DNA of 22,688 nucleotides from a virus. The DNA lies in the IMG/VR virus record IMGVR_UViG_3300011116_000314, positions 1 to 22,688 of that record, one strand, 5' to 3'. This document shows positions 900 through 22,688 of this stretch, piece after piece (the stretch's first letter is position 1; each line of letters begins with the position of its first letter). The position numbers and the translations under genes were made by a program. Below the pieces are notes generated by a model. It was not told the origin of the DNA. It saw nothing but the letters and a program-made list of their open reading frames with translations, and did not search any database.

Positions 900-2132
900 A
901 TGTCTACAGTATGCCTCTCAATGATCGTAAAAAACGAAACTCACATCATCCATGAATGCTTGGATTCTATCCACAAATACATCGACTATTGGGTGATTGT
1001 TGATACTGGTTCCACAGACGGTACACAAGAACTCATCAAGAAATACTTTGCGGAGAAGGGCATTCCCGGCGAACTGATTGAGAAGCCGTGGATCAGTTTT
1101 GGTCACAACCGAAGCGAAGCCCTAGCCCTATGCGATGGTAAGGCAGACTACGCTTGGATGATTGACGCTGATGACAAGATTGTTGGCGACTTCAAGTTCC
1201 CAAACGGAAAGAACATGACTGCTGACGGTTACGCACTCAAGTGTGGACGCGACCAGTGCATTTGGTGGCGTAATCAAATCTTCAAGACAGGAATCGGTTG
1301 GAAGTACATTGGTGTGCTGCACGAGTACGCACATTGTGACAAGCAGCCGCTCCATCAGGAAAAGATTGAAGGCAACTACCATCTAGAGGCTCGCACACTT
1401 GGACACCGTAATGTAAATGTGACACAGGTGGAAAAGTATTCCAAGGACGCAGAAACCCTGCTTGAAGCCCTGAAGACCGAACCAAACAACTCACGGTATC
1501 AGTTCTACCTTGCACAGTCGTACTTTGATTCTCAGCAATGGGACAAGGCTACTGAAGCGTACTACAAGCGGGTAGAAATGGGTGGATGGGAAGAAGAATG
1601 CTACTACTCCTTGTTCCGCGTGGCTCTGATTGCTATGGCACAGGAGAAGGAGTGGCCCGTGATTCAGCAGAAGTTGCTGGACGCTTACGACTACCGCCCG
1701 TGCCGTGCCGAACCTCTCCATGCCATCGCACGAAGTCTACGAATGATGAACAGACCTCGTGCGGCTTATATGTTTGCCAAGGAAGCCGCCCAAATTCCGT
1801 ATCCACAGCAGGACATCTTGTTCATAGACACTAATGTGTACAAGTGGATGGCTTTGGATGAACTAGGGGCTACAGCGTTCTACACCCACGATTACAGAAG
1901 CGGATATGCTGCTTGTGAAATGCTTCTAAAGGAGAACCGTCTGCCGCCATCAGAGGTGGAACGAGTTAGGAAAAATCATCAGGCGTATGCACAAAAACTA
2001 GCAGAGATGCAGCAGATGCAAGCCCAAATGCAGGCACAGCAGCAAAGTATTAAACCAATTGAACAAAAGCAACAACCGAAGTCTGCATACATACCTCCTA
2101 GAGCGAATCGCTTCAAGGAGAGAAAGAAGTAA
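900..2132 (+). CDS. glycosyltransferase family 2 with TPR-like C-terminal half
   Basis: This 410-residue protein has a GT-A fold N-terminus: LSMIVKNE at residues 6-13, VDTGSTDGT near 36-44, and a DxD-type metal/sugar-nucleotide motif at D89-A-D-D92. Residues about 190-300 resemble tetratricopeptide repeats (YQFYLAQSYFDSQQWDKA), as in SunS-like glycosyltransferases, where the repeats help hold the acceptor. The C-terminus (about 365-410) is rich in Gln/Met and ends basic. It probably transfers a sugar from a nucleotide donor to a protein or other acceptor; the acceptor is unknown. The start is ATG 900, preceded by AAGGAG at 886-891. Its last base overlaps the next ATG (TAATG), so it is translationally coupled to a possible virion protein, which is an acceptor candidate by position only. 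Confidence 0.88.
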   Translation: MSTVCLSMIVKNETHIIHECLDSIHKYIDYWVIVDTGSTDGTQELIKKYFAEKGIPGELIEKPWISFGHNRSEALALCDGKADYAWMIDADDKIVGDFKFPNGKNMTADGYALKCGRDQCIWWRNQIFKTGIGWKYIGVLHEYAHCDKQPLHQEKIEGNYHLEARTLGHRNVNVTQVEKYSKDAETLLEALKTEPNNSRYQFYLAQSYFDSQQWDKATEAYYKRVEMGGWEEECYYSLFRVALIAMAQEKEWPVIQQKLLDAYDYRPCRAEPLHAIARSLRMMNRPRAAYMFAKEAAQIPYPQQDILFIDTNVYKWMALDELGATAFYTHDYRSGYAACEMLLKENRLPPSEVERVRKNHQAYAQKLAEMQQMQAQMQAQQQSIKPIEQKQQPKSAYIPPRANRFKERKK

Positions 2133-2587
2133 TGCCCGCAGCAAACTACGACATCTACGCCAAGCAGGACGAGACACTTAATTTCCATGTGGAGTATTAT
2201 GACACCAATGGAAATGCCGTAAACCTTACAGGCTATACTGCTCGTTTTCAGGTTCGTCCCAACACCGCAAATCTGTACAAGTATTTGGATGCAACGGTCA
2301 GCGGTGTCACAGGAGGCGGCAGCACTGGAGACTATCTTGAAGGTGCTACGCTGAAGAACGGTGTGACTTGGACATCTCCGGGCGTTGCAGGCACAGGTGG
2401 AATCTATCTGAATTGCGGTGAAACTGGTGGTGTGTTCACGGGCGGAATCCGTCTCAACATAGACTACACCACGATGGGCAAGGTTCCTGTGGGCACTTGG
2501 GTCTATGGGTTTGATCTCATGCAAGGGGCAACCGTAAATGAACTCCTAACAGGTCGATTTGTTGTTACTGATAAAGTGGTGCGATGA
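2132..2587 (+). CDS. possible virion/baseplate accessory protein with Ig-like N-terminus
   Basis: This 151-residue protein opens with a pattern common in phage structural genes: an acidic/aromatic strand (DETLNFHVEYYDTNG) followed by VNLTGYTARFQVR (about residues 30-42), then Gly/Thr-rich beta segments. The VNLTGYTARxQVR pattern recurs in small phage and prophage proteins encoded near fibre or baseplate genes, some related to the BppU N-terminal domain. I have no catalytic motif and no firm family. No signal peptide or membrane segment is seen. It begins at ATG 2132 inside the glycosyltransferase stop and overlaps the next gene by 4 bases, so the three appear to be one translational unit. A structural role is inferred from the pattern; glycosylation by the upstream enzyme is speculation. 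Confidence 0.55.
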   Translation: MPAANYDIYAKQDETLNFHVEYYDTNGNAVNLTGYTARFQVRPNTANLYKYLDATVSGVTGGGSTGDYLEGATLKNGVTWTSPGVAGTGGIYLNCGETGGVFTGGIRLNIDYTTMGKVPVGTWVYGFDLMQGATVNELLTGRFVVTDKVVR

Positions 2588-2826
2588 TCTACAAACTAAA
2601 AATAAAAGAACCGTCATTTCAAGTAACTGCCAATCTTGATGAGCGGGTAAAGACCTCCAAGAACAAACTGGTTGTCAAGCAGCCATCCCTTTACAAACTG
2701 CGACCCAAACCAAACGGTCTAGTCATAAACACATCAAAAAATAATGTGATATACAAGACCGAAAACGGTAACGGAATAATTCTAAAATACTCACAGGGAA
2801 CTGCCGTTTACAAACAAACTGGTTGA
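2584..2826 (+). CDS. small basic protein of unknown function
   Basis: An 80-residue Lys- and Asn-rich protein that I do not recognise. It has short alternating beta-like segments (VIYKTENGNGIILKYS, TAVYKQTG) and no signal peptide, membrane helix or cysteine. It overlaps the preceding gene by ATGA (2584-2587), which supports it as a real coupled gene. Its TGA stop (2824-2826) lies inside the -35 box of the dUTPase promoter, so it closes the upstream transcription unit. By position it may belong to the possible virion protein before it. Confidence 0.65.
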   Translation: MIYKLKIKEPSFQVTANLDERVKTSKNKLVVKQPSLYKLRPKPNGLVINTSKNNVIYKTENGNGIILKYSQGTAVYKQTG

Positions 2827-2850
2827 CACTTTTATAATCTCGTGTATACT
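2823..2850 (+). promoter_or_regulatory. sigma70-type promoter for the dUTPase unit (TTGACA-N16-TATACT)
   Basis: A perfect -35 hexamer TTGACA (2823-2828) is followed by 16 bases and TATACT (2845-2850, one mismatch to TATAAT). It sits in the only gap between the small unknown gene and dut. Transcription would begin near 2857, followed at once by AAAGGAG (2857-2863) and ATG 2871. The TGA inside TTGACA is the stop codon of the preceding gene. The same design recurs at 3941-3968, which raises confidence. It looks like an early promoter read by host RNA polymerase. Confidence 0.7.
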
Positions 2851-2870
2851 CCACCCAAAGGAGATTCGTC

Positions 2871-3416
2871 ATGTATGATACTATACAAACGCTAGGCGTT
2901 TACGCCATTCCCCAAACAAATCCGGTACTGCCCAAGTTTGCAACCGAAGGTTCTGCGTGTTTCGACATTCACGCACGGCTGCATCCTGAACACATTGCCT
3001 ACTACGAAGGCACAACAGGGGTATCAGAACAGAAAAAGGTGGATACCACCAACTGCGAACGCAAGATTTGGGTGTTTCCCGGTCAGCGTGTCCTTGTTCC
3101 CACAGGGCTGATTCTAGACATTCCTGTGGGCTATTCGGTGCGTCTACACGCTCGCAGCGGGCTAGCACTCAAGAACGGGCTAGTGCTAACCAATTCCGAA
3201 GGCGTGATTGACCACGATTACACCAACGAACTGCTGGTCATGGTGAGCAACATCAGCAGCGGCAGCGGAGCACGAGAAATCCTTATCACCGACAACATGC
3301 GGCTGTGTCAGGGTGAACTTGTGCGGTGTGTGCCCACAAACATTCAATGGGTTGCGGATCGTCCGCAGCGTGATACCCGTAACGGTGGATTTGGCAGCAC
3401 AGGAGTCGGCACATGA
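2871..3416 (+). CDS. dut: dUTPase (dUTP diphosphatase, trimeric type)
   Basis: Hydrolyses dUTP to dUMP and pyrophosphate, keeping uracil out of DNA and feeding thymidylate synthesis. The trimeric dUTPase motifs appear in order over 181 residues: motif 1 SACFDIHA (28-35), motif 2 HARSGLA (93-99), motif 3 GVIDHDYTNEL (111-121) with the usual Asp and Tyr, and the C-terminal P-loop-like motif 5 RNGGFGSTG (170-178). Motif 4 is degenerate: the usual GDRxAQ is replaced near 141-149 by DNMRLCQGE. An insertion at about 38-65 makes the protein longer than the usual 140-155 residues. The start ATG 2871 has AAAGGAG 7 bases before it. The product dUMP is the substrate of the ThyX encoded at 17576. Confidence 0.93.
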   Translation: MYDTIQTLGVYAIPQTNPVLPKFATEGSACFDIHARLHPEHIAYYEGTTGVSEQKKVDTTNCERKIWVFPGQRVLVPTGLILDIPVGYSVRLHARSGLALKNGLVLTNSEGVIDHDYTNELLVMVSNISSGSGAREILITDNMRLCQGELVRCVPTNIQWVADRPQRDTRNGGFGSTGVGT

Positions 3417-3733
3417 CCCGAGATGAACTACTAGCATTTCATGCAGAACTATGCAAGGCTGCTCGTGACCTGATGAGCCTGAAGAACCGTGACTACGCAG
3501 GCAAGGAAGGGGTTGAGCCGTTTGCCAACTTTACCCGTGTGGAAGCAATGGGCATCTGCAAGACGGAGCAAGGCTTCATGGTGCGTCTCACCGACAAGAT
3601 GAGCCGCCTGTCTTCGTTCATTCACGCAGGCAAGATGAATGTGCGGGACGAGTCGTTCATGGACACATGTGTGGATGTCATCAACTACATGGTGCTGCTG
3701 GCTGCGTACTTGAAAGATAAAGACGCGAAGTGA
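3413..3733 (+). CDS. DUF1599 / Nmad1-like nucleotide-associated protein
   Basis: This 106-residue all-helical protein overlaps the dUTPase stop by ATGA. It matches the DUF1599 family (nucleotide modification associated domain 1): NRDYAG at 25-30, PFANF at 36-40, RLTDKMSRL at 58-66, and an acidic helix DESFMDTCVDVINYM at 79-93. The layout of acidic helices resembles MazG-like all-alpha NTP pyrophosphatases, although I cannot confirm a complete metal site. The family name reflects its association with phages that alter nucleotides or DNA bases. Coupling to dut suggests a role in the nucleotide pool. Recognition of the family is good; biochemical activity is inference. Confidence 0.75.
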   Translation: MTRDELLAFHAELCKAARDLMSLKNRDYAGKEGVEPFANFTRVEAMGICKTEQGFMVRLTDKMSRLSSFIHAGKMNVRDESFMDTCVDVINYMVLLAAYLKDKDAK

Positions 3734-3734
3734 A

Positions 3735-3944
3735 ATGTTTCACGAATTCAAAAATCCAGTACCCGTACACACGCCACTAGGCGACGGGTATATTTGGTAT
3801 GTTCGTGACGGTGGCACATGGGAAAATGATGTATTCACCGTTGTGCTTGAGAACGGAAATATACGGCACTTCCGCTCTGACCAAATTCAAATATGGAACA
3901 ACGGAACATTTGATATTGTGTCAAATATTCAACCTCCGTCTTGA
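3735..3944 (+). CDS. small conserved phage protein of unknown function
   Basis: A 69-residue protein of alternating beta strands (HTPLGDGYIWYV, DVFTVVLENGNIRHF, SDQIQIWNNGT). Small proteins with the same plan (an opening HTPxGxG segment and a closing HFxSDxIxIxNN segment) occur in T4-like phage genomes, but I know no function for them. ATG 3735 follows the preceding TGA by one base, so translation is probably coupled. The TGA stop lies inside the -35 box of the next promoter. Confidence 0.65.
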   Translation: MFHEFKNPVPVHTPLGDGYIWYVRDGGTWENDVFTVVLENGNIRHFRSDQIQIWNNGTFDIVSNIQPPS

Positions 3945-3968
3945 CAACTCTCATCCCTGTGGTATACT
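3941..3968 (+). promoter_or_regulatory. sigma70-type promoter for the uvsE-lysozyme unit (TTGACA-N16-TATACT)
   Basis: TTGACA (3941-3946), a 16-base spacer and TATACT (3963-3968) repeat the hexamers and spacing of the promoter at 2823-2850. Again the stop codon of the preceding gene (TGA 3942-3944) is inside the -35 box. Only six bases separate the -10 box from ATG 3975, so the predicted start of transcription falls on or next to that ATG. Confidence 0.68.
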
Positions 3969-3974
3969 GTGGGC

Positions 3975-4898
3975 ATGATCCGCCATCTTGGCTATGCCTG
4001 TCAAAACTTGTCCCTTGCACGGGGACGCAAACTCAAAGATCGGTTGCTCACCGACCGTACTCTTCGTATGGACAGGTTTACCCTTGAGCGTGTGGGAGAA
4101 CTCGCCGTTCGCAATACCGAAGACCTTTTGCCTATTCTGCAATGGAATGCCGCAAATGGAATTCGGTTCTTCCGTATTGGGAGCGGTGTGTTTCCGTTCA
4201 TGGATCATCCCACCCTACAGTACACCCTGCACGATCTAGCACTACACCACTACGAAGCCGTTACCGCAAACCTTGCTGCCGCAGGTCGGTACGCCAAGAG
4301 CGAAGGTATGCGGCTGTCGTGCCACCCTGGCCCGTACACCTGTTTGGCTTCTCCCGATCACGATGTGGCAGACAAGAGCATTCTGTGTCTAGAAATGCAC
4401 TCCCTGCTTGCAGACCTGTTGGGATACGGTGACGAGTTTGCCATCAATATTCATGTGGGTGGCACTTACGGCGAGAAGACTGATGCGGCTAAACGATTCG
4501 TGGACAGGTTCCGCGAGTGTTCTCCCCGTGTGCAGGCTCGCCTAACGGTGGAGAACGACGACAAGGCTTCCATGTGGAGCATGAGCGATCTGTACGAAAT
4601 CCTGTGGTCGCGTTGTGAACGCTTGAAGTTGGTGTTGGATGTGCACCACCACCGCTTCTGTCAGCGTGAAAGTCTTGAAGACGCTGCCAAGATGGCATTC
4701 AGTACTTGGGACGGGTTCTGTGAAATTCCTAAAGTGCACTATTCAGAATCTCGTGACGGTGCTCGTCCTCAAGCCCACTCGGACTACATAAAGGGAGAGA
4801 TACCGCTTCTTGATCCTGTGCGTGAATACGATGTCATGCTTGAAGCCAAAGCAAAAGATTTGGCACTACTTGAATGCCGTGAAAGGATTCTCCTGTGA
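3975..4898 (+). CDS. uvsE: UV-damage endonuclease (UVDE/UvsE family)
   Basis: Nicks DNA 5' of UV photoproducts, starting an alternative excision repair. The 307-residue length and the motifs fit the TIM-barrel UVDE family: start IRHLGYACQNLSL, FRIGSGVFPF (about 62-71), the metal ligands in LSCHPGPYT (about 113-121), NIHVGGTYGEK, VENDDK, DVHHHR, KVHYSESRD and MLEAKAK near the end. An in-frame GTG at 3969 would add two residues. ATG 3975 is preferred because it gives the family-typical N-terminus and coincides with the predicted +1. No Shine-Dalgarno sequence is visible upstream, so the mRNA is probably leaderless. The stop overlaps the next gene's GTG start (GTGA). Many T4-like phages use DenV for this task; a UVDE is a distinct solution. 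Confidence 0.92.
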   Translation: MIRHLGYACQNLSLARGRKLKDRLLTDRTLRMDRFTLERVGELAVRNTEDLLPILQWNAANGIRFFRIGSGVFPFMDHPTLQYTLHDLALHHYEAVTANLAAAGRYAKSEGMRLSCHPGPYTCLASPDHDVADKSILCLEMHSLLADLLGYGDEFAINIHVGGTYGEKTDAAKRFVDRFRECSPRVQARLTVENDDKASMWSMSDLYEILWSRCERLKLVLDVHHHRFCQRESLEDAAKMAFSTWDGFCEIPKVHYSESRDGARPQAHSDYIKGEIPLLDPVREYDVMLEAKAKDLALLECRERILL

Positions 4899-5275
4899 TT
4901 GCTGCATTGATTGCGACTGCTGCTCTTGCGGTTCCGCCCTCTGTCTCCACAGACCGCCTGTTGGATGCCATGTACACCGTTGAATCGGGGCGTGGCAAGA
5001 ATCTGATTGGTGACGGTGGCAAGGCGATTGGCCCGTATCAGATTTGGTACTCGTATTGGCGTGACGCTGTGGAATACGATCCGTCCATCGGCGGCTCGTA
5101 CCGCGACTGCATGGACAAGGCGTACTCCGAACGGATTGTGTGGGCGTATTGGTGTCGCTACGCTCCGAAGGGTGCAAGCGTGGAGCAGTTGGCTCGTATT
5201 CATAACGGAGGCCCAATCGGTTACAAGAACGCCAAGACGGTTGGATATTGGAAGAAAATTAAGTCTAAACTATGA
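4895..5275 (+). CDS. secreted lysozyme-like endolysin, destabilase (i-type lysozyme)-like
   Basis: A 126-residue protein starting at GTG 4895, with AAAGGA (4882-4887) 7 bases before it and a GTGA overlap with uvsE. Residues 1-12 (MIAALIATAALA) form a short hydrophobic signal-like stretch with a possible cleavage after ALA, though without N-terminal lysine or arginine. The rest resembles i-type lysozyme/destabilase: TVESGRGKN with candidate catalytic E30, GPYQI (46-50), YWRDA, YRDCMDKAY, and the hallmark ARIHNGGPIGY (100-110) near the C-terminus. It would cut peptidoglycan after export, serving as endolysin or virion lysozyme. The family fit is by motif memory only. A lytic transglycosylase-like enzyme is the main alternative. 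No holin was recognised nearby. Confidence 0.7.
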   Translation: MIAALIATAALAVPPSVSTDRLLDAMYTVESGRGKNLIGDGGKAIGPYQIWYSYWRDAVEYDPSIGGSYRDCMDKAYSERIVWAYWCRYAPKGASVEQLARIHNGGPIGYKNAKTVGYWKKIKSKL

Positions 5276-5846: not shown

Positions 5847-6470
5847 ATGGCATTCAACAAGAACAAGAATCCTAAACTGGTATATGGCGTTGGTATAAAC
5901 GACGCAACCTATGTTGTTGCAGGCAGGATAAATGGAAAGCAAGTTCTGTGCCCAATCTACAGCATGTGGAAATCCATGTTGCACCGCTGCTACGGTTCCA
6001 AGAAACTGAACTACAACAAAGCGTATATTGGATGCTCTGTTGCACCCGAGTGGGTTAGTTTTTCTGGATTTAGGAAATGGGTTCTAGAACAGCCCTCCGA
6101 TTGGCAGCACGAAGATTACGAATTAGATAAAGACCTGTTGGTTGAGGGAAACCGTGTGTATGGCCCAGAGACTTGTTTGCTGGTTCCAAAGGTAGTAAAC
6201 AATTTCTTCTATCAAAAAATGACAGAAGATGTTGGAGTACGATACTTCCCAAACAGAAAGAAGCCGTGGCGAGCAACTTGTGGATCAGGAAGCAGAAACG
6301 ATAAGTGGGTCAAATATTTTTATACCAAAGAAGAAGCACAGAACGCCTACCTAGAAGAGAAGACTAGAAGAGGAAACATTATTGCAGAAGGACTCACCGA
6401 TGAACGAGTCAAGACTGCGTTTCTTCGTCGTTTGGAAAGTATGAGAGAAAAACTTGTGAACATGGTATGA
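5847..6470 (+). CDS. AP2/HNH-type homing endonuclease-like protein (copy A)
   Basis: A 207-residue protein of the family often annotated in phages as HNH endonuclease with AP2 DNA-binding domain. Visible features are YSMWKSMLHRCYG (38-50), AYIGCSVAPEWVSF, then the ELDKDLLVEGNRVYGPETC segment (about 92-110) that stands in for the HNH metal site. A C-terminal AP2-like strand set follows (VRYFPNRKKPWRATCG, then YFYTKEEAQNAYLEE). Such genes typically spread by cutting and homing into related phages. No good ribosome site precedes ATG 5847, but it follows the nuclease stop by two bases. It is paralogous to the gene at 7381-8058; the two flank the Mom-like gene. Its base composition is AT-rich. Confidence 0.78.
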   Translation: MAFNKNKNPKLVYGVGINDATYVVAGRINGKQVLCPIYSMWKSMLHRCYGSKKLNYNKAYIGCSVAPEWVSFSGFRKWVLEQPSDWQHEDYELDKDLLVEGNRVYGPETCLLVPKVVNNFFYQKMTEDVGVRYFPNRKKPWRATCGSGSRNDKWVKYFYTKEEAQNAYLEEKTRRGNIIAEGLTDERVKTAFLRRLESMREKLVNMV

Positions 6471-7381
6471 GTGAAACAGAAAACCCGTGTCTGCGGGAAT
6501 ACAACAAAGACCACTGTTGGCAATACGATATTCGTCTCCGTAACCGTGAAGACGATCTGAAAGCCGCAGGACTAACCGAAGATGCTGCACAGGCACTTCG
6601 GGTTTCTGATTTTGTATTCCGCCCACTCAATTCCCCTGAAGACCGTGCCCAAGCAGTAGCGTTCATCAAACGGCACGAGTGGTTGGGTAATCTGTCACAA
6701 TACACTACCCATTGGTTTGGTGCGTACTACCACGATCCACATCAAGGCTTGGTGGGCAAGGACATCATGGCAGGAGTCATCCTGATGAATATGCCCAACG
6801 CATTTTCTAAACTGTTGGGCGAAGACACCAAAACCATTGAGCGATTGGTTAGCCGTGGTGCGTGTGTGTCGTGGAGTCCCAAGAATCTTGCAAGTTCGTT
6901 CCTGATGTGGTGCTGCGGGTGGATGGTGAAGAATACACCGTATCGCCTGTTCACCGCGTACTCTGATCCTACCGCAAAAGAGTTGGGAACCATCTACCAA
7001 GCGTGTAACTGGTACTACTTGGGGCAGGAGTCAGGAACCACCACACGGTACATCAATCCGTACACAGGCAAGGTTGTGAGTGACCGCTTCTTCCGTGTGC
7101 GTAGTGCGTACAAGAAGTACGCCAAAGAGTTGGGCATCAAGTGGCAACGGGATTGGAACAACGATCAGCGTATGCTGTGGGAGAATGTGCCTGCGGAAGT
7201 GGAAGCCCAACTCCGTGCACACAGCAAAAAGAAACAGAGCGAGTCTCAAAAGATTCAGATGCCAAGCAAACACAAGTACGCTTTTGTGTTGGGTGCAACC
7301 AAAGCCGAAACCAAGAAGTTGAGACGGGAGTTTGAAGAGCGAAATCCACCCAAGCCGTATCCAAAAGAAAGGGGCAAGTGA
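6467..7381 (+). CDS. Mom-like GNAT-fold protein, candidate DNA adenine modification enzyme
   Basis: A 304-residue protein. The core resembles the Mom family of GNAT-fold enzymes: GVILMNMP (103-110), LVSRGACVSWSPKNLASS (127-144), and AYSDPTAKELGTIYQACNW (164-182) followed by YYLGQESG. In phage Mu, Mom adds a methylcarbamoyl group to adenine and shields DNA from restriction. The pattern SYxDPxxxxxGTIYQAxNWxYxG is typical of that group. Residues about 240-304 are a Lys/Arg-rich tail. It overlaps the preceding gene by ATGA. The GC-rich codon use matches the phage core and contrasts with the homing-type genes on both sides, so it may be an older resident invaded by them. It could instead be a GNAT protein acting on another substrate. 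Confidence 0.62.
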   Translation: MSETENPCLREYNKDHCWQYDIRLRNREDDLKAAGLTEDAAQALRVSDFVFRPLNSPEDRAQAVAFIKRHEWLGNLSQYTTHWFGAYYHDPHQGLVGKDIMAGVILMNMPNAFSKLLGEDTKTIERLVSRGACVSWSPKNLASSFLMWCCGWMVKNTPYRLFTAYSDPTAKELGTIYQACNWYYLGQESGTTTRYINPYTGKVVSDRFFRVRSAYKKYAKELGIKWQRDWNNDQRMLWENVPAEVEAQLRAHSKKKQSESQKIQMPSKHKYAFVLGATKAETKKLRREFEERNPPKPYPKERGK

Positions 7382-8058
7382 TGGGAACTAATCGTCATAG
7401 AGGCAAGATATTGGTTTGTGGTGTCGGTTATAATGATGTGGATGCCGCCACCCAGCGTTTGGAAAATGGTAAACTGGTTGTAACCCCGCACTATGGTGTA
7501 TGGAAAAAAATGTTTGATAGGTGTTACAATCCAAAACATGTTAAAGCAAAGAACTATATTGGATGCACGGTTCACCCCGATTGGCATAGATTTTCAAAGT
7601 TCAAGGAGTGGGTGGATACTCAACCACAAACAGATTGGCAGGATTTACAAATAGACAAAGACTTGCTAGTGAAGGGCAATAAAGTCTACGGCCCTGATAC
7701 CTGCTGCTTTCTGACCCGTAGAGAGAATAGTGTGTTTAAACCATCCGCTACCAAACTTGGAAGTATTGGCTATTATAAAAAAAGAAAAAAGCCTTGGCAG
7801 GCTAGGGTGTGGAAGAACGGCAAAGATACTTATTTTGGGGTTTACTCAACTAAAGAGGAAGCGGATATTGTTGCCTTTAGGGTAACACTTAAATCAGTCA
7901 TAGACCTAGCCAACGCCAACCCCCACCAGTTCATCCGAGAGGCTATGATGAGATGGGTAGACGAGTGGAAGCAGGAATTGTTATTGCGTGAATCAGCATT
8001 TCAAAAACTTGGAGAAAAAAATAATGGAAACGGAACGCTACAAAATCATCTGTGCTGA
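7381..8058 (+). CDS. AP2/HNH-type homing endonuclease-like protein (copy B)
   Basis: A 225-residue paralogue of the protein at 5847-6470. Matching blocks are LVCGVGYND, HYGVWKKMFDRCYNPKH, NYIGCTVHPDWHRF, QIDKDLLVKGNKVYGPDTC, then KKPWQARVWKNGKDTYFGVYSTKEEA (the AP2-like part). ATG 7381 is chosen over GTG 7378 because it sits about 6 bases after AAAGGGG (7368-7374) and overlaps the upstream TGA by one base. The 3' end overlaps the first part of the split methyltransferase (ATG 8024) by 35 bases in another frame. Such a long overlap suggests that the gene's end was created or extended by insertion. It is AT-rich. Confidence 0.78.
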   Translation: MGTNRHRGKILVCGVGYNDVDAATQRLENGKLVVTPHYGVWKKMFDRCYNPKHVKAKNYIGCTVHPDWHRFSKFKEWVDTQPQTDWQDLQIDKDLLVKGNKVYGPDTCCFLTRRENSVFKPSATKLGSIGYYKKRKKPWQARVWKNGKDTYFGVYSTKEEADIVAFRVTLKSVIDLANANPHQFIREAMMRWVDEWKQELLLRESAFQKLGEKNNGNGTLQNHLC

Positions 8059-8245
8059 TTGCATAGCAGGCATGAAGACTCTGCCTGATGGCTGTGTACA
8101 CACGGTCATTACATCACCACCGTATTTCGCACTACGCTCATATTTGCCTGATGGAGTAAAACTTCGTGAGGATTTGACACCAGAACAAGTGGAATATGTG
8201 TTGACCGAACTAAAAAATAGAGGTATTAGCCATATTTTGGAGTGA
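8024..8245 (+). CDS. DNA methyltransferase, N-terminal part (split gene, first piece)
   Basis: A 73-residue fragment of a beta-class amino-methyltransferase (N6-adenine or N4-cytosine). It opens YKIICADCIAGMKTLPDG and carries the catalytic motif IV TSPPYFALRSYLP (about 30-42). Reading ends at TGA 8243-8245 after ISHILE, just before an HNH endonuclease gene. The rest of the enzyme resumes at about 8838. ATG 8024 is chosen over the longer frame from 7988 because GGAG (8011-8014) precedes it and IICADC matches family N-termini. Alone it lacks the SAM-binding motif, so it would have to associate with the second piece, or be joined by RNA splicing if the insert were an intron. Codon use is phage-core-like. 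Confidence 0.82.
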   Translation: METERYKIICADCIAGMKTLPDGCVHTVITSPPYFALRSYLPDGVKLREDLTPEQVEYVLTELKNRGISHILE

Positions 8246-8246
8246 T
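8235..8246 (+). repeat. left copy of an imperfect 12-base repeat flanking the HNH insertion
   Basis: TTTTGGAGTGAT here and TTTTGGTATGAT at 8831-8842 differ at two positions. They bracket the HNH gene and the break in the methyltransferase. Both are followed within a few bases by ATACA and TAG. They are 596 bases apart, so simple recombination between them would not restore the methyltransferase frame. Confidence 0.45.
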
Positions 8247-8274
8247 TCTCTATACATAGTATGGAGGGAAATAT

Positions 8275-8841
8275 ATGCACCAACAAAGAAAAACAGACGG
8301 AACCTTTAAGAAAGGCAGTCATTGGAGACATCCTACTAGACTTTGGGACAAGCAATGGCTTGAAGAACAGTATTTGTCAAAGAAACGATCTATGCAAGAA
8401 ATAGCAACTGAAATGGGCGTATCTGAACCCGCTGTTCGTCATTGGATACGAAAGCATCAAATACGGTCACGAAACACATCTGAAGCAAGAGCAATAAAAC
8501 ACTGGGGAGTATATGGTGCAGATAATCCCATGTGGAATAAGAGGGGTGAACTGAATCCAAACTGGAAAGGTGGAGTAACACCCGAGCGGCAGGCTTTTTA
8601 TACAAGTAAGGAATGGAAAGGAGCATGTCGTGCTGTTTGGAATCGTGATGGTTCATGTTGCAGGAGATGTGGAATACACAAATGCGAAGCAGAAGATGTT
8701 CCTTTCCATATACACCACATAAAACCCTTTAGTGAATCAGTTGAATTGAGAACAGATATTGATAATCTTGCTTTGGTTTGTGAGATATGCCACCATTGGA
8801 TACATTCAAAACAAAATACACAGAAAGAGTTTTTGGTATGA
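8275..8841 (+). CDS. HNH homing endonuclease interrupting the methyltransferase gene
   Basis: A 188-residue protein with three parts. A helix-turn-helix at about 22-60 contains QEIATEMGVSEPAVRHWIRK. A NUMOD3-like linker follows (NPMWNKRGELNPNWKGG, about 83-100). The C-terminal HNH nuclease (about 125-180) has CRRCG, the HIHHIKPF catalytic His pair, NLALVCEICHHWIH and two zinc-type CxxC pairs. It would make a cut in a specific DNA site and copy itself there. ATG 8275 has GGAGGG (8263-8268) 6 bases before it. It lies between the two parts of a methyltransferase gene, and its TGA overlaps the ATG of the second part (ATGA at 8838-8841). Flanks outside the ORF are too short for a group I intron core, so it looks like a freestanding homing gene that split its host gene. 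It is AT-rich. Confidence 0.9.
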   Translation: MHQQRKTDGTFKKGSHWRHPTRLWDKQWLEEQYLSKKRSMQEIATEMGVSEPAVRHWIRKHQIRSRNTSEARAIKHWGVYGADNPMWNKRGELNPNWKGGVTPERQAFYTSKEWKGACRAVWNRDGSCCRRCGIHKCEAEDVPFHIHHIKPFSESVELRTDIDNLALVCEICHHWIHSKQNTQKEFLV

Positions 8842-8842
8842 T
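8831..8842 (+). repeat. right copy of the imperfect 12-base repeat flanking the HNH insertion
   Basis: TTTTGGTATGAT matches 10 of 12 bases of 8235-8246. It contains the ATG (8838) from which the second methyltransferase piece is likely translated. It may be the remains of the insertion site, or a chance AT-rich match. Confidence 0.4.
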
Positions 8843-9746
8843 ATACAATAGGTCTGATATACCAGATGATCTTATTCAGTTTTTTGAACTCGCTGAGATT
8901 GGACACGAAGAAACCCCCGAGCAGTATGTACAGAAGATGGTGGAGGTGTTCCGTGAGGTTCGTCGCATTCTGCGAGACGACGGAACCTTGTGGTTGAATC
9001 TTGGCGACTCGTATGCCACCACAAGCGGAGGCATGGAGCAGTTGCGTAAGATGGGTGGAGACACCCCTGCATACGGCAAGATCAAGTACGCTGAAGGCTA
9101 CAAGGGCGTGTCTCAAAAGGGCAAGGCAGGAGCCAAGCGTGAAGGGCTAAAGCACAAGGATTTGATTGGCATTCCGTGGCGGGTTGCTCTTGCACTCCAA
9201 GCAGACGGGTGGTATCTGCGTCAAGACATTATTTGGAACAAGCCCAACCCCATGCCTGAAAGCGTCACAGACAGGTGTACCCGTTCGCATGAATACATTT
9301 TCATGTTGACCAAGCAGCCCAAGTACTACTACGATCACGAAGCAGTCAAGGAAGCCGCTGTGGGCAAGCCTCACGCACCGGGCAACAAGAACCGCACACA
9401 ACCTGAAGACAAGGGTGCTCGTGATCCTGCACTTGAACCTGATCGCGTATGGGCAGCAGACGGCAAGCGAAACAAGCGTTCGGTGTGGACGGTGACAACC
9501 AAGGCATACAAGGGTGCACACTTCGCTACCTACCCGAAGGACTTGATTGAGCCGTGTGTTTTGGCAGGATGCCCTGCCGGTGGCACGGTGTTTGACCCGT
9601 TCACAGGCAGCGGTACAACGGCTGTGGTGGCTCTTACTCACGGACGAAACTACATCGGCACAGAACTCAATCCTGAATATGTGAAACTCGCGGAAGCACG
9701 AATTACTGAAGAAGTCCCTAATACTTTAGAAGGAATGCTGCAATGA
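8838..9746 (+). CDS. DNA methyltransferase, C-terminal part (split gene, second piece)
   Basis: The 302-residue remainder of the beta-class DNA methyltransferase. Conserved blocks are EETPEQYVQKMVEVFREVRRIL and DGTLWLNLGDSYA early, RQDIIWNKPNPMPESV and RSHEYIFMLTK in the middle, and the SAM-binding motif I FDPFTGSGTT with YIGTELNPEYVKLAEARI at the end. The order motif IV then motif I is that of beta-class enzymes. The longer frame opens at 8787, but 8787-8837 lies inside the HNH gene and does not resemble the family. ATG 8838 sits in the ATGA overlap with the HNH stop and precedes the family-like sequence SDIPDDLIQFFELAEIG. Together with 8024-8245 it supplies all the motifs of one enzyme, which probably protects phage DNA or alters expression. 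The target site is unknown. Confidence 0.88.
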   Translation: MIYNRSDIPDDLIQFFELAEIGHEETPEQYVQKMVEVFREVRRILRDDGTLWLNLGDSYATTSGGMEQLRKMGGDTPAYGKIKYAEGYKGVSQKGKAGAKREGLKHKDLIGIPWRVALALQADGWYLRQDIIWNKPNPMPESVTDRCTRSHEYIFMLTKQPKYYYDHEAVKEAAVGKPHAPGNKNRTQPEDKGARDPALEPDRVWAADGKRNKRSVWTVTTKAYKGAHFATYPKDLIEPCVLAGCPAGGTVFDPFTGSGTTAVVALTHGRNYIGTELNPEYVKLAEARITEEVPNTLEGMLQ

Positions 9747-9940
9747 AAAAGAAAAGAAAAAGTAATAGGGGCAAGATAATCAAGGAAGATTTTTACAGAT
9801 TTAATCTACCTGATTGTTATACTAAAAATCCAGAGTTACACGAAAAACGAATTCAAAAAGAAGAAAAAAAGAAGTTGAAAGAAGATCAAGAGTTTTTTGA
9901 ATGGTACGAAAACGAACTTAAGAAATACGGATACAAATGA
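9743..9940 (+). CDS. small basic protein of unknown function
   Basis: A 65-residue, Lys/Glu-rich protein. The first 13 residues are strongly basic (MKKKRKSNRGK), and a predicted helical segment EKRIQKEEKKKLKEDQEFF fills the C-terminal half. It has no cysteine, signal peptide or membrane segment. I do not recognise it. It is joined to both neighbours by ATGA overlaps (9743-9746 and 9937-9940), which supports expression. The basic start could bind nucleic acid, but that is a guess. Confidence 0.6.
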   Translation: MKKKRKSNRGKIIKEDFYRFNLPDCYTKNPELHEKRIQKEEKKKLKEDQEFFEWYENELKKYGYK

Positions 9941-10203
9941 AAAAGAAACTAAAGCCAATCGGAAAATGGGTACTGGTCGCAACCAAACTCGGCGGGCAGA
10001 AGACCACCGAAGCAGGAATCATTTATACTGAAAAAGTTACTTGTAAAATGGTTTGGGGAGAGGTTGTGGATATTGGCCCCGATCTCACCGAAGACATTAA
10101 AATAGGCGACAAGGTGATGTGGGACTTGACAAAGAACCTTGGTCGCGGGTATGATGGCAAGGACTTGGTTCATCAGGACTGGATCGCAATGGTGGAGAGA
10201 TAA
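9937..10203 (+). CDS. GroES-like co-chaperonin (phage gp31 analogue)
   Basis: An 88-residue protein with the GroES beta-barrel plan: a basic start then KPIGKWVLVAT (6-16), a short mobile-loop region KLGGQKTTEAGIIYTEK (17-33) with the family-like TxxAGIIY turn, GEVVDIGPD (41-49), IKIGDKVMW (55-63), and the closing strand DWIAMVER. Co-chaperonins cap the GroEL ring. Phage versions such as T4 gp31 retune the host chaperonin for folding the major capsid protein. The roof-loop region is short, and length is slightly below the usual 95-100 residues of GroES. It sits directly before the polymerase gene (TAATG, one base shared), an unusual neighbourhood. The fold call is fairly confident; chaperonin partnership is inferred from the family. 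Confidence 0.78.
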   Translation: MKKKLKPIGKWVLVATKLGGQKTTEAGIIYTEKVTCKMVWGEVVDIGPDLTEDIKIGDKVMWDLTKNLGRGYDGKDLVHQDWIAMVER

Positions 10204-17575: not shown

Positions 17576-18298
17576 ATGCAAACTCGTGAAACCTTTATTT
17601 CTGTGCTGAACTGTGGTCATGTGGAATATGTGGATCATATGGGCAGCGATTTGAGTGTGGTGAATGCTGCTCGTGTGTCGTTCAACAAAGCCAGTGATTG
17701 GGAAGGGGAACCGCATTGGAGCGGAAACACTCCCCGAAAGTTGCAGCCCCGTGATGAAAAACTGATTGCGTACTTGGCTAAACACAAGCACTGGACTCCG
17801 TTTGCCCATCCACAGATTACCCTGCGGATCAAGGCTCCCATCTTTGTGCGAACACAACTTTTTAAACATAAAATTGGAATGGTCGAGAATGAAGTGTCTC
17901 GTCGGTATGTCACAGACGAACCGCAGTTCTACACTCCTGAATGGCGATCAGCACCCACAGACGGAGCCAAGCAGGGCAGCAGCAATTTCGTGGACGATGT
18001 TCCCCTTGTAGCAGAGATGGACGAGATGTTTAATCGGATTGTGCTGGAAGCCCTTGATGTGTACAACCGTCTGCTTGCTCGTGGGGTTGCTCCTGAACAA
18101 GCACGAGCGGTTCTACCACAGGGAACCTATACTGAATGGTGGTGGACAGGTTCGCTGTCTGCGTTTGCCCGCATCTACACACAACGGATAGACGCACACG
18201 CACAATGGGAAGTGCGGGAATACGCCCGTGCAATTTCTGAAATCATTGCACCCCTGTTCCCCCACTCGTGGAAGGCACTAACGACACTCCCTACATAA
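17576..18298 (+). CDS. thyX: flavin-dependent thymidylate synthase ThyX
   Basis: Converts dUMP to dTMP using FAD, NADPH and methylene-tetrahydrofolate, so it takes up the product of the phage dUTPase. The 240 residues carry [10 protein letters not shown] (31-40), [19 protein letters not shown] (60-78), and the FAD/dUMP motif region [20 protein letters not shown] (92-111). The usual RHR-X7-S signature is here K97-H98-K99 followed by 8 residues and S108, a Lys-for-Arg, one-longer variant I have seen in other viral Thy[11 protein letters not shown] and [17 protein letters not shown] follow, with [14 protein letters not shown] near the end. Start ATG 17576 is 5 bases after the previous stop. The gene ends four bases before the collagen-like gene. 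Confidence 0.93.
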
Positions 18299-18302
18299 TA
18301 CG

Positions 18303-20621
18303 ATGGAACAGTTTAAACGCTTTTCAAAGCCTAAAGACTCACCCGAGCCGCAGCCCCTACCGTTTTCGGAGGGGCGTTATGGCTTTGGTGCACAGTTCCT
18401 ACTCACACACAAGGTAAAAGGCACAGACTACCGTATCGGTGACAGGTTCACCTATATTTCACAAACCGAAGCGGTGGGACACAACCCGTATATTTTGAAA
18501 ATTGGTGACGGTATTGGAGAACACTGCTTTCTTGATCCAAACGGAAGAGCCGTTGTGCTGTCTGCGGATGTGGGAGTTGTAGACACCCTGTTTGAGCATG
18601 TGGCTCCTGCCCCCAAAACCGTGACTATCAGCGAAGGCGAAGAGTGGACTCCTCCACCCACACCTCCTGTTTACATTACGGAATCACAGTTCACCGAGTT
18701 CCGCAAGGGGCTGGCTACTGTGCTTTCAGAAATTGCTGCGATTGTTCCGAAGCAGGGTGAGCAGGGCATTCGTGGTGAACGCGGTGAACGGGGAGAGAAG
18801 GGTGAGCGTGGTGAAACAGGATGGAACGGATGGCCAGGTGACAAGGGCGAGCAAGGCGTTCAGGGCGAAAAAGGTGACAAGGGCGATAAAGGAGACACAG
18901 GTGAGCAAGGCATTCAAGGCATTCAAGGCCCGAAGGGCGATAAAGGCGATACAGGCGAGCGTGGTGAAAAGGGCGAGAAAGGTGATCGTGGCGAGCGTGG
19001 CGAAGTTGGCCCTCGTGGTGAAAAAGGCGAGAAGGGTGCTAGAGGAGAGCCTGGAATTCCAGGTAGTGAGGGAAGAGCGGGAAATGATGGAAAGAATGGG
19101 AAAGACGGCAAGGACGGTAAAGAAGGCAAAGCAGGAAAAGCGGGCGAAAAAGGACTAAAGGGAGACAAGGGCGACAAGGGTGATCGTGGAGAAAAGGGAG
19201 AGCAGGGCGATAGTGGTTTACTGTCTGCCAAGTTTCCACTTGTTTACGATGCCCAAGAAAAGTCTGTTGCAATTGATGAAGCCCGTCTTGATAAAATCCT
19301 GAAGAAGATTCTTGGTGGCGGAAAAGTGTCCGCTGCTGATATGGGATGGCTTGCCTCCACAGGTGGTGGCGGCAAGGTGGCTGTATACCACGATGGAGTA
19401 AAGGTAACTCCTGATGTTCGTGGACTGAACTTTACAGGTAGTGGGGTTTCCGTCACCAAAGAAAATGGTGTTGGCGGAAAACTCATTGTTAATATCACGG
19501 GCGGTGGTGGCTACGGTTCAACTGGCCCAACAGGCCCAGCAGGCCCAACAGGTGCAGGCGGTGCTTTGGGATATTGGGGATCGTTCTGGTCAACACAGGA
19601 TCAGGTTGCGACTCTTGCTGACACAGAGTACCAAATCACCCTGAACAACACCGATCCTGATTCCAACGGCGTATCCATTTCTAACAGCAGCAGAATAAAC
19701 TTTGCCCACAGCGGTGTGTACAGCATCATCTACTCTGTGCAATTCGTGAACACTGGCAACCAAATTAAAGATGTTGACATTTGGCTGAAGAAAAACGGAA
19801 GCAATGTAGCAGACACCGACAGCCGATGGAGCGTTGTTGCAAGTCACGCTGGAGTGGACGGTCATGCCATCGGAAGCGTGAACTACATGTTGGAAGTGAA
19901 CGCTGGCGATTACCTTGAGTTGGCATGGAAAACAACTGATACAGGACTTTCCATTCAATATCTTCCTGCCTCTGCTCCTGCTCCTGCTGTTCCGTCAGTC
20001 ATATTGACCGCACAACAAGTCATGTACACACAGGTTGGTCCAACTGGTCCGACTGGATCACAAGGATCAACAGGAGCCACAGGAGCCACAGGAGCGACTG
20101 GCCCAAAAGGAGCCACAGGAGCATTTGGTTTCCATTATCTGTACACCGCTATCGGAACAGGACCGTCTGCCAACAATGGAATAAATTACGGTGCAGGATA
20201 TCTATCAGGAAATTACGCAATAGCCACCCCAGGTGGTGGGTCTAATTCTTTTTATGTTCCTGCAATAGATTATCACGGGGTTGATCGTTCTGATGTTTTA
20301 GAATTTTTCGATGCTTTGCCCTCAACAGGTATAGTAGGATATCAAGGACACCTGTACATTCAAAGTGTAGAGAGAAACTTGGTGTCTGCTTACAGAATTA
20401 CCAGTATCACACGAATAGGGCCGTATAGCGGAGAGACTGCGTGTTATGTGTTCACATGGAGTAGCGGACAAGAAGGATCCGCAACCGCTGGTGCATTCAA
20501 TGAAGGTGAAGAGTTTGCAATTCTTTACACTCCTGGAGGATCAAGGGGAGCACAGGGTGACAAAGGAGACACAGCAACAATAACTTCACTAAACGGTGGT
20601 GTGTTGTCAGTTACAGAGTGA
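18303..20621 (+). CDS. collagen-like tail fibre / virion surface protein
   Basis: A 772-residue protein in blocks. Residues 1-150 are a globular N-terminus that may attach to the virion. Residues 152-304 are an unbroken run of about 50 Gly-X-Y triplets rich in Glu, Lys, Asp and Arg (GERGEKG, GDKGDKG), which should form a charged collagen triple helix. A beta region (305-400) precedes a short [10 protein letters not shown] stretch (about 404-419). A jelly-roll-like domain (420-577, [34 protein letters not shown]) resembles C1q/TNF-like domains. Another neutral collagen run [17 protein letters not shown] (579-609) precedes a C-terminal domain with its own short GAQGDKGD. Such proteins trimerise and often bind hosts. 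No ribosome site is visible before ATG 18303; coupling to thyX over four bases is likely. Confidence 0.88.
18756..19215 (+). repeat. degenerate 9-base coding repeats of the Gly-X-Y region
   Basis: DNA in phase with the collagen triplets repeats units such as GGTGAAAAGGGC and GACAAGGGCGAT with synonymous variation. About 50 triplets run from 18756 to 19215. Such tracts can change length by slippage or unequal recombination, which would alter fibre length. Confidence 0.75.
20071..20117 (+). repeat. short tandem 9-base repeat (CAGGAGCCA)
   Basis: Three near-identical copies of the 9-base unit CAGGAGCCA run from 20071, with a fourth after GGCCCAAAA. They encode the GATGATGATG part of the second collagen-like run. 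The copies are much less diverged than those in the first run, suggesting recent expansion. Confidence 0.6.
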
Positions 20622-20629: not shown

Positions 20630-20644
20630 CTGTAGAGGAACTAC

Positions 20645-22688
20645 ATGCCAGATATTGAGATTTCACTCAAAAAGAGCACAGGAAACCCTACTTCGGCTTC
20701 TGGTCTAACACTAGCCGAACCAGTTTTCAACTACTCTAACAATACTTTTTGGATGGGTAAAGGTAGCGGAAACACCCCTGTATGGGTGGGTGCTGGTATT
20801 TGCGGTGCTTCAGGTGGTATTGCTGCGGGATTGAATTATCAGATTCCCACGCTCGGTGCAGTCAAGGACTATTTCTCTGCGGTATCTTCCGCTTTCTTGG
20901 GCAAAACTGCCTCGTATGTGGCAACCTTTAACGGAGCCACAGGAGCCGTAACAGGGGTTTCGTCTTTCAACGGACTCACAGGTGCAGTCACGGGTGCTTC
21001 GCTTGGAGCCAACACTTTCACGGGACTACAGACTCTAAACGCAGGCTTGACCACATCTTTTGCCTATGTGAGCGGTGGGCTGACTGTGGGCGGAAGCCTA
21101 TATGTGAACGGCAACCTGACTGTGAGCGGTGGAGTCACCACAAGCATCAGCGAGATTGTGCTGATTGAAGACAACATCATCACACTTAATTCCAATGTGA
21201 CAGGCACTCCCACAGAGAACGCAGGCATTGAAATTGAGCGTGGGACATCCGCTAACACACAAATCCTGTGGAACGAGTCCACAGACAAGTGGACATTCAC
21301 CAATAACGGAACCCTGTATTACGATATTCCAACCGACTATGTGAGTTCGTTTAACGGGTTGACAGGTGCAGTTGGAGGCGTGACCACATCGGCAGCAAAC
21401 ACATTTACTGCTCTACAGTCGTTTGCCCAAGGTGTGTCTAGTGCAGGTGGAACCTTTGATAGCCTTACTGTATCAACAGATATAGTTGCTAGTGGAGTAA
21501 TTGCGGGAACTGAGTTCAGCACTGGAGTATATTACAGGGTTGAAGACGGAACAAACACCAGCGACTACGGATTAAATTCATTGGGGTTCTTTAATGGAGC
21601 CAGAACCCAGAATTGGAATCCAGGTTTTACTGGAGCCAACACATCTATAACATTTCCAGCCGCGACCACTACACTAGCAGGGCTTTCACTTGCTCAAACA
21701 TTTACTGCTCTGAATTCGTTCAACGCAGGCATATCCGCAGCGGGTGCTACATTAAGTGGAACAGTTACCGCACCAACACCCGCCGTTGGAACCAACAACA
21801 CTCAAGTAGCAACCACAGCATTTGTGCAGAACGAAATAGTTGCGGATGCTGTTACGGCATTCAACGGGTTGACTGGTGCGGTTACAGGCGTAACTGTTGG
21901 TGGAGCCAACACATTTACCGCTCTGAATTCGTTCAACGCAGGCATATCCGCAGCAGGCGGTATCACATTCGGAGCCACAGCGGCATTCCGAAGCAGTATA
22001 TCTCTACAGAACTCTGAGTTTATTCGTAATACCACAGACGGTCGTATAGATTTTATGCCCGCTCCGTCAAGTTCCACGGCTTATGGGGTATACTTGGATT
22101 TCACTTCGTGGACATTTGGTCCAAGATTTGGAACCATAAAGTCTAGCGATAATACCACAAACACCGCAGGTATTCTGTGGGATACATCATTAGTTCTAGG
22201 AAATGATGTAGACTTTGCTTTTGGTTCAAATCAGGCGTATAAATTCCGCACAACCGTAGTAAACAGCAGTTACAAAACCATGCAACTAGGATTACCTGCT
22301 GGAGTAGCAGGTTACAGTAGTGCATTGGCTCTTATAGACTACGCATACCAAGGCTCATCTTTAAGAGTTCCAAATACAGTTCATGCCAATCCAAATCTAT
22401 ATCTGTATTCAGCAGGTCAAGCAAGTGCCAACGATTTCATGCGTATGGAGCATGACCGAGCAACAGGAAGAATTGCTTCAGGTGGAACAAGTGGAATCAG
22501 CGTTGAACCTGGAAATGGTGTGCTTGGAATTAGTGGTGGATTAAGTGCGTCTGGTGGTGTCACATTTAGCGGAACAGTTGCGTCTAACACAGGATATAGG
22601 GTAACATCAAGTGCAATCAACGCACAAACAGGAACCACATATACTTTGGTTAGCGGAGACAATGGAGAAATAATCACTTTCAACAACG
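20645..22688 (+). CDS. long repeat-built tail fibre protein, 3' end beyond the window
   Basis: The frame from ATG 20645 (GAGGA 5 bases before) stays open for 681 codons to the window end. The N-terminus MPDIEISLKKSTGNPTSASG, then LAEPVFNYSNNTFWMG, is a fibre-start pattern. A block near residues 175-215 (SEIVLIEDNIITLNSN, TPTENAGIEIERG, ILWNESTDKW) is shared with T4-like cyanophage structural proteins as I recall them. The unit FNGLTGAV..T(F)TALNSFNAGISAAGG recurs about four times between residues 95 and 440. TNNTQVATTAFVQNE (about 382-396) is a well-known phage fibre motif. The rest is Ser/Thr/Gly-rich beta sequence. It likely forms a trimeric fibre for host binding. No chaperone or C-terminal autocleavage domain is visible because the gene runs off the window. 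Confidence 0.88.
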   Translation, partial: MPDIEISLKKSTGNPTSASGLTLAEPVFNYSNNTFWMGKGSGNTPVWVGAGICGASGGIAAGLNYQIPTLGAVKDYFSAVSSAFLGKTASYVATFNGATGAVTGVSSFNGLTGAVTGASLGANTFTGLQTLNAGLTTSFAYVSGGLTVGGSLYVNGNLTVSGGVTTSISEIVLIEDNIITLNSNVTGTPTENAGIEIERGTSANTQILWNESTDKWTFTNNGTLYYDIPTDYVSSFNGLTGAVGGVTTSAANTFTALQSFAQGVSSAGGTFDSLTVSTDIVASGVIAGTEFSTGVYYRVEDGTNTSDYGLNSLGFFNGARTQNWNPGFTGANTSITFPAATTTLAGLSLAQTFTALNSFNAGISAAGATLSGTVTAPTPAVGTNNTQVATTAFVQNEIVADAVTAFNGLTGAVTGVTVGGANTFTALNSFNAGISAAGGITFGATAAFRSSISLQNSEFIRNTTDGRIDFMPAPSSSTAYGVYLDFTSWTFGPRFGTIKSSDNTTNTAGILWDTSLVLGNDVDFAFGSNQAYKFRTTVVNSSYKTMQLGLPAGVAGYSSALALIDYAYQGSSLRVPNTVHANPNLYLYSAGQASANDFMRMEHDRATGRIASGGTSGISVEPGNGVLGISGGLSASGGVTFSGTVASNTGYRVTSSAINAQTGTTYTLVSGDNGEIITFNN
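21698..21745 (+). repeat. direct repeat in the tail fibre gene, copy 1
   Basis: This 48-base stretch encodes TFTALNSFNAGISAAG. It matches 21911-21958 at 45 of 48 bases; the three differences are all synonymous third-base changes. The spacing is 213 bases, a whole number of codons (71), so recombination between the copies would remove or duplicate one 71-residue module without breaking the frame. A more diverged copy lies at 21401-21448. Confidence 0.85.
21911..21958 (+). repeat. direct repeat in the tail fibre gene, copy 2
   Basis: Second copy of the 48-base repeat at 21698-21745, in the same reading frame. The near-identity at DNA level is higher than in the other repeats of the gene, which suggests recent duplication or gene conversion. 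Confidence 0.85.

Follow-up and report, generated by a model that had tools for sequence, protein, structure and literature searches.

An HNH homing-endonuclease gene lies between two halves of a phage DNA methyltransferase that probably still form one enzyme

The window, by which we mean the whole stretch of DNA analysed, is a virus record of 22,688 bases. It carries a DNA methyltransferase (MTase) in two pieces with an HNH endonuclease gene between them. The features of the locus are given below; L numbers denote the loci collected for comparison.

7378..8058, plus strand: second HNH-type gene (PHROG_953 HNH endonuclease, 9.8e-58)
7382..8907, plus strand: tract unlike the nearest relatives, delimited by blastn breakpoints
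8024..8245, plus strand: MTase N piece, 73 aa, with motif IV TSPPY and a C-terminal tail
8144..8245, plus strand: clasp-N, the tail of the N piece, LPDGVKLREDLTPEQVEYVLTELKNRGISHILE and stop, missing in unsplit short-loop alleles
8144..8894, plus strand: putative mobile unit (N tail, HNH gene and C head), about 751 bp by comparison with the empty alleles L001/L002/L003
8275..8841, plus strand: HNH endonuclease gene, 188 aa, with an HTH-like N-terminal part and the HNH at the C-terminus
8838..8894, plus strand: clasp-C, the head of the C piece, MIYNRSDIPDDLIQFFELA, missing in unsplit short-loop alleles
8838..9746, plus strand: MTase C piece, 302 aa, with the remaining core motifs, the TRD and motif I FDPFTGSGTT

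The N piece, the HNH gene and the C piece are three ORFs in three different frames. ORF calls together with Pfam and PHROG searches reproduced this layout, the motifs and the translation signals at every coordinate given in the initial annotation. The N piece starts at ATG 8024 behind GGAG (8011-8014) and stops at TGA 8243-8245; the HNH gene runs from ATG 8275, preceded by GGAGGG (8263-8268), to TGA 8839-8841; and the ATG of the C piece at 8838 overlaps the HNH stop as ATGA, its reading frame ending at 9746. The C piece matches PF01555 in Pfam (1.1e-46), and the 188-aa HNH protein matches PF01844 (1.3e-9) with the HNH catalytic residues present; its HIHH, N and H (HIHH..N..H) are invariant in the alignment with relatives. 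The N piece matches the DNA methyltransferase family PHROG_67 (2.1e-11) and, because it is short, gave no Pfam match. Its residues 6-40 are ~71-83% identical to several intact MTases, and it reads ICADC at the place where relatives read ILGDC, which could be early drift. The second HNH-type gene lies directly upstream of the N piece, with an overlap of 35 nt. A search of the coding strand between 7900 and 9000 for promoter- and terminator-like sites found none.

Uninterrupted homologues of the MTase occur in short-loop (L001-L005) and long-loop (L135/L136) forms. The short-loop alleles read ..SPPYYGLRDYDGGDAEIG..; the window reads ..SPPYFALRSY-LPDGVKLREDLTPEQVEYVLTELKNRGISHILE up to the stop, followed by the HNH gene and then by MIYNRSDIPDDLIQFFELA-EIG... 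Aligning both pieces to uninterrupted homologues, a check suggested in the initial annotation, revealed no loss of a conserved block at the junction: L135 and L136 align through it with no conserved column missing, and a few non-conserved residues of theirs lie between the last residue of the N tail and the first of the C head. The MTase core in an AlphaFold model of L135 is mostly at pLDDT 87-99, with an inserted loop (~41-90) at pLDDT 49-78 between confident core elements; the best fold matches of the model are CcrM, M.BceJIV and M.MboIIA. On the best reading, the insertion site is a variable surface loop that follows motif IV and precedes the next core helix. Motif order (motif IV on the N piece, then motif I on the C piece), PF01555 profile and fold are those of the beta-class N6/N4 amino-MTases to which these three belong; the enzyme of the window differs from them in consisting of two chains, the break falling after motif IV and before the next core element.

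The initial annotation had put the insert at about 0.6 kb. Measured against unsplit alleles the insert is larger, because ~33 aa at the end of the N piece and ~19 aa at the start of the C piece are also missing in unsplit alleles. Since near-identical unsplit alleles lack both the HNH gene and the tails, we infer a mobile unit of ~0.75 kb that includes the tails. From 8907 on, the C piece shares 96% DNA identity with the unsplit L001 and L002 (blastn), and its residues 19-302 share 99% protein identity with L001. Within the differing tract, L001/L002 match in a single island of 68 bp (8057-8124) around motif IV, and 8107-9013 is 81% identical to the split L111. A second pair of relatives, L011/L012, matches at 91% over 6473-7382 and resumes at 8892 (blastn). 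The left breakpoint, 7382, is the end of a mom-like gene, and the right one, 8892-8907, lies just past the C head. In the C-piece tree, the split state requires 8 changes; the nearest row to the window is the unsplit L001 (99%), and L114 clusters with the unsplit L054 and L057 (SH-aLRT 97). By these sequence comparisons, the split has been gained repeatedly on the MTase tree, with flanks transferred along with the HNH gene. Relatives of the HNH gene also adjoin intact MTases on the upstream side in L152 and L153. Such intergenic siting next to an intact gene is typical of free-standing homing genes, as in the T4 mob genes.

A scan of viral contigs that used the HNH and the junction as queries uncovered the same N-HNH-C layout in 13 further viral contigs (L084, L111-L118, L146, L150, L151 and L154), which fall into about eight sequence groups. 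The layout is also present in L141, a contig binned with a Peregrinibacteria genome (MAG). As it repeats in these 14 other contigs, it is not a product of chance or assembly error. HNH identity to the window ranges from 85% down to 43% across the split contigs; among isolate phages we found no close HNH copy, the matches there reaching ~41% identity at most and having mostly partial cover. For the pairs of split copies with finite dS, many others being saturated, dN/dS was 0.08-0.12 in the N piece, 0.08-0.20 in the HNH gene and 0.07-0.25 in the C piece, and clasp-N showed a dN of 0.04-0.06 against a dS of 0.65-1.06 (window vs L111/L114). Judged from these substitution rates, both halves and the HNH gene are under purifying selection, which by itself is no proof that the two pieces work together as a single enzyme.

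One locus, L215, carries the same split with the HNH gene absent. Its N piece ends in ..LLGIKSI and a stop, followed by 14 nt and a C head starting MNIYNKKDIPEHLQQYFEPAELG, and a GGA-type ribosome-binding site precedes the ATG of the C piece. The N frame of L215 contains three in-frame stops, so its break is not a single sequencing error. Its relative L151 has an HNH gene where L215 has the 14-nt gap. The presence of the split without an HNH gene indicates that the two-piece enzyme outlasts the endonuclease. In the window, too, a sequencing error or single frameshift was rejected, given several stops and the many contigs; the N frame has, besides the stop at 8243-8245, several more through the insert.

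Phage HNH endonucleases are commonly intron-encoded, and the insert might accordingly be a group I or group II intron with a ribozyme core overlapping the HNH ORF and an mRNA that is spliced. The initial annotation had argued that no room is left for an intron core, and this held: all but 29 nt of the insert is ORF, and nothing in Rfam matched, including in a permissive scan of 8000-9100, so that no ribozyme core was found. Each piece has its own start and stop. L118, in which the HNH and C ORFs overlap, and L151, in which the N stop overlaps the HNH start and the HNH gene overlaps the C ORF, are as compact as the window, and the 14-nt gap in L215 is too short for any intron. On the Rfam result, the compactness and this gap we rejected the intron, which we consider extremely improbable.

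We favour the reading that a homing-endonuclease unit split the phage MTase and left a working two-chain enzyme, to which we assign, from sequence, a probability of roughly 0.77. The initial annotation had proposed a homing-gene insertion leaving two pieces that may work or may be dead; the intact junction, the low dN/dS, the breadth of occurrence and L215 now point to the working enzyme. If the MTase were instead dead or decaying, the HNH gene having broken a dispensable gene of which the pieces are remnants, stops and frameshifts would be expected to build up. The frames are intact across highly diverged copies, dN/dS is low including in the tails, and the split has been kept in L215 without the HNH gene. 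On the other side, phage orphan MTases are often dispensable, as a passage of PMC11855218 states for the ShiLan methylase, and the 96% identity of the C body to unsplit alleles makes the window insertion recent, with little time to decay. Taken together, we regard a dead enzyme as unlikely.

By its sequence, the insert belongs with mobE of Aeh1 among the homing insertions that leave genes in pieces: an endonuclease ORF lies inside a host coding sequence, the host gene forms two ORFs with their own starts and stops, unsplit homologues exist, and nothing conserved is lost. In Aeromonas phage Aeh1, mobE lies in nrdA and a genes-in-pieces ribonucleotide reductase results (Friedrich et al., 2007; review PMC2988022), an enzyme whose function is proven and whose halves associate (PMC2988022). 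Both systems have a free-standing HNH homing gene within coding sequence, an enzyme of two polypeptides, no intron or intein, and related HNH genes in intergenic positions beside the same gene in other phages (here L152 and L153). They differ in that the host gene here is a DNA MTase, that many lineages are affected, that the tails are conserved and coding, and that an endonuclease-free copy exists; furthermore, the split enzyme of Aeh1 has been proven to function, whereas that of the window is only likely to. The novelty lies in the enzyme affected, in how the arrangement recurs among phages, in a split that lacks an endonuclease and in tails that reappear at several breaks.

By analogy with known homing genes (PMC2988022), the HNH endonuclease would cut or nick unsplit alleles, and the unit with its flanks would be copied in by recombination. 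The unit would comprise an in-frame N extension ending in a stop, a free-standing HNH gene preceded by a ribosome-binding site of its own, and an in-frame C extension, the start codon of the C half overlapping the HNH stop. One polycistronic mRNA would yield both halves, the second through translational coupling, and they would associate non-covalently into an active enzyme; association is known for Aeh1 nrdA and likely here. With lower confidence, the tails may make up a small docking element of helices and so help the halves to meet.

The tails as part of the insert, and as a feature of other breaks, lay beyond the view of the initial annotation. At three other MTase positions a break is likewise bordered by a similar pair of tails, and the gap there contains a reverse-strand HNH gene, a Vsr-like endonuclease gene or none:

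L139: break ~13 residues downstream of the window's site; opposite-strand HNH gene (PF01844, 1.5e-8)
L215b, the second break of L215: break between NWVLR and NEIVWHKPN; no endonuclease
Mycobacteriophages: break between ..GAERPS and VAHPTVKPL..; opposite-strand Vsr-like gene or nothing

To detect tails elsewhere, we built profiles from this site's tails only and ran them against 27,780 ORFs of the collected loci. The best matches of the N-tail profile outside the set were L136 (same site, unsplit), L139, the second break of L215, L209 and mycobacteriophage methylases; the C-head profile found L135 and L139 and, lower and amid unrelated ORFs, L215b and Jebeks. In L139 and L215b, both tail halves beat all of 5,000 shuffles each. 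In the mycobacteriophages, the N tail beat all 5,000 and the C head was weaker (1-25/5,000). The match to L209, an unrelated ORF that reached 14.0 bits against the tail profile, marks what chance can reach.

The tails match 84 Mycobacterium phage records at their methylase. Most of the query lies in one place in 67 of the 85 matching records, which therefore have no endonuclease in the gap; in the remainder the match is interrupted or partial. In Girafales, the same gene is unsplit and tail-free in a context 96-98% identical to Seagreen, and PF01555 covers 1-219 there as against 1-89 and 172-219 in the two Fishburne pieces. Tails and endonuclease thus form one insertion in these phages as well. 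Seagreen has the split with an endonuclease, and Jebeks has it with none. The ShiLan methylase itself carries this break, further downstream (gp65/66/67). In the mycobacteriophages, the peptide that forms the head (gp66-like, 29 aa) lies in a different frame from the motif-I piece (ACC TAA TGCC GTC), so that +1 frameshifting or re-initiation at a GTG behind GAGGAGG would be needed, and the mycobacteriophage head may be separate from the C piece. Passages of PMC9957025 and PMC11855218 describe an intein, a LAGLIDADG and a hidden-HNH ShiLan domain in this methylase; in these passages we found no mention of the split. Like our insert, the ShiLan domain as presented there is a mobile HNH gene in a phage DNA methylase with no intron or intein signature. 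Unlike our insert, its HNH is hidden out of frame and the methylase frame stays open, whereas stops break the host gene here and the window has no continuous host frame.

Extra coding sequence on broken ends is also what a split intein would leave, the tails then being trans-splicing intein halves around a free-standing endonuclease. In 2009, Dassa et al. reportedly described fractured genes in which split inteins occur together with Vsr-like homing endonucleases; these genes share with the window two gene halves, an endonuclease gene between them and added sequence on the broken ends, and a Vsr-like endonuclease occupies the gap in some of the mycobacteriophage cases. Unlike those genes, the window has no intein sequence, and its tails are far too short for splicing. 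They measure ~33 and 19-25 aa, intein motifs are absent, and the broken ends have neither a conserved Cys/Ser start nor a His-Asn/Cys-Ser-Thr end. The window pieces gave no match to an intein profile in Pfam, although the same search detected true inteins in the related MTases L036 and L215. We rejected an intein in the window on this Pfam result, and the split-intein reading appears to us barely credible.

Alternatively, the tails may be the inherited loop of a long-loop lineage, and their likeness to tails at other sites may be convergence on the amphipathic-helix motif DLTPEQV. Unsplit long-loop forms do exist (L135, L136), DLTPEQV[DE] is frequent in unrelated phage proteins, and L209 scores about like some tails. 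When we searched viral contigs with the DNA pattern of DLTPEQV[DE], it fell mostly in unrelated proteins, so the motif is not diagnostic by itself. Queries with the tails of L139 and L118 gave only chance matches in phage genomes, and the query from the second break of L215 gave no match there. Against inheritance, at three other positions (L139, L215b and the mycobacteriophages) both halves match together, in order and precisely where the gene is broken, and near-identical unsplit alleles lack the tails (L001 vs the window; Girafales vs Seagreen). In addition, L135 groups on the tree with the unsplit L159 (85%), which lacks this loop, so the loop of L135 was probably acquired. We therefore find an inherited loop doubtful, while giving it appreciable weight.

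In the single-chain structure model the tails are predicted at low confidence, and we give the idea that they dock the halves about an even chance. Caution is warranted because DLTPEQV is generic, L209 scores well and the tail searches were null; a search for solved structures resembling the tails found none. Tentatively, and at somewhat less than even odds, we propose that the insert represents a novel type of mobile element, with an endonuclease gene between the halves of a portable docking domain, which breaks an enzyme yet supplies the parts that hold it together. Such an element would be a non-splicing counterpart of the split intein. Its gap would be filled by unrelated endonucleases (a same-strand HNH, an opposite-strand HNH or an opposite-strand Vsr-like gene) or emptied, and phage amino-MTases would have received it at four or more positions, one of them in the widely studied mycobacteriophage ShiLan-type methylase.

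Homing genes are usually held to spare the host gene only by occupying an intron, an intein or an intergenic site, and Aeh1 nrdA is the best-known exception. Among the MTases described here, a large family of phage DNA methylases, the exception has become recurrent, mobile and stable. Dozens of mycobacteriophages have motif-I pieces that are listed as small methyltransferases in their own right; these are parts of the neighbouring gene. If the tails dock the halves, phages would possess a splicing-free route to harmless gene breakage, and the tails would provide natural split-protein tags, together with natural two-chain methyltransferases for study.

The N piece of the methyltransferase (MTase) in the window is flanked by HNH genes on both sides, with an HNH-type gene directly upstream. 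The MTase also adjoins a Mom-like gene, whose end marks the start of the foreign tract, the stretch differing from the nearest relatives. The Cpn10 and ThyX genes belong to a region for phage replication, in which PolB, RecA-like and DnaB-like genes also lie.

Further genes of the window
3969-4898, UvdE endonuclease
6467-7381, Mom-like DNA modification gene (PF25680, 6.9e-11)
7378-8058, second HNH-type gene (PHROG_953, 9.8e-58)
9937-10203, GroES-like Cpn10 (4.5e-9)
17576-18298, ThyX (4.6e-47)
18303-20621, collagen-repeat protein
20636-22688, repetitive ORF, 684 aa, open at the contig end

The last two, which follow one another, probably encode virion decoration or fibre proteins.

Two related MTases carry inteins. 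In L215 (2426-4761), a relative of the split locus L151, two breaks produce three ORFs from one MTase, which contains an intein with a LAGLIDADG domain (junctions WHKPN/CLNGK...IHN/CMPAS). The L036 MTase (1838-4021) has an in-frame intein (Intein_splicing, 8e-7; LAGLIDADG_3; junctions DIIW/CLSGG...SHN/SKPN) and is adjoined by tandem MTase genes.

The ShiLan-type methylase of mycobacteriophages (L245, which is ShiLan, NC_041988, 1220-4493; L239, L240, L241 and L246) is split, and Girafales has an unsplit allele. ShiLan gp65 lacks motif I, which gp67 carries; gp66, of 29 aa, matches the head tail, and the annotation lists the three pieces as separate genes. In these methylases, a conserved stop and a 7-nt change of frame (L241, about 2740-2760; L240, about 3445-3460) part the head peptide, ending in VAHPT, from the motif-I piece (VKPLALMRWLV). 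It is possible that this piece is reached by a +1 frameshift or an internal start behind GAGGAGG.

The C piece of the L151 MTase contains a second insertion (3969-4472), through which the MTase frame stays open (3485-5071). Hidden out of frame within it is an ORF of 167 aa, HNH-like by eye from its sequence rather than by profile. The insertion resembles ShiLan in its open host frame and concealed HNH-like ORF; in L151, one MTase gene is thus both split by an HNH gene and bears a ShiLan-like insertion.
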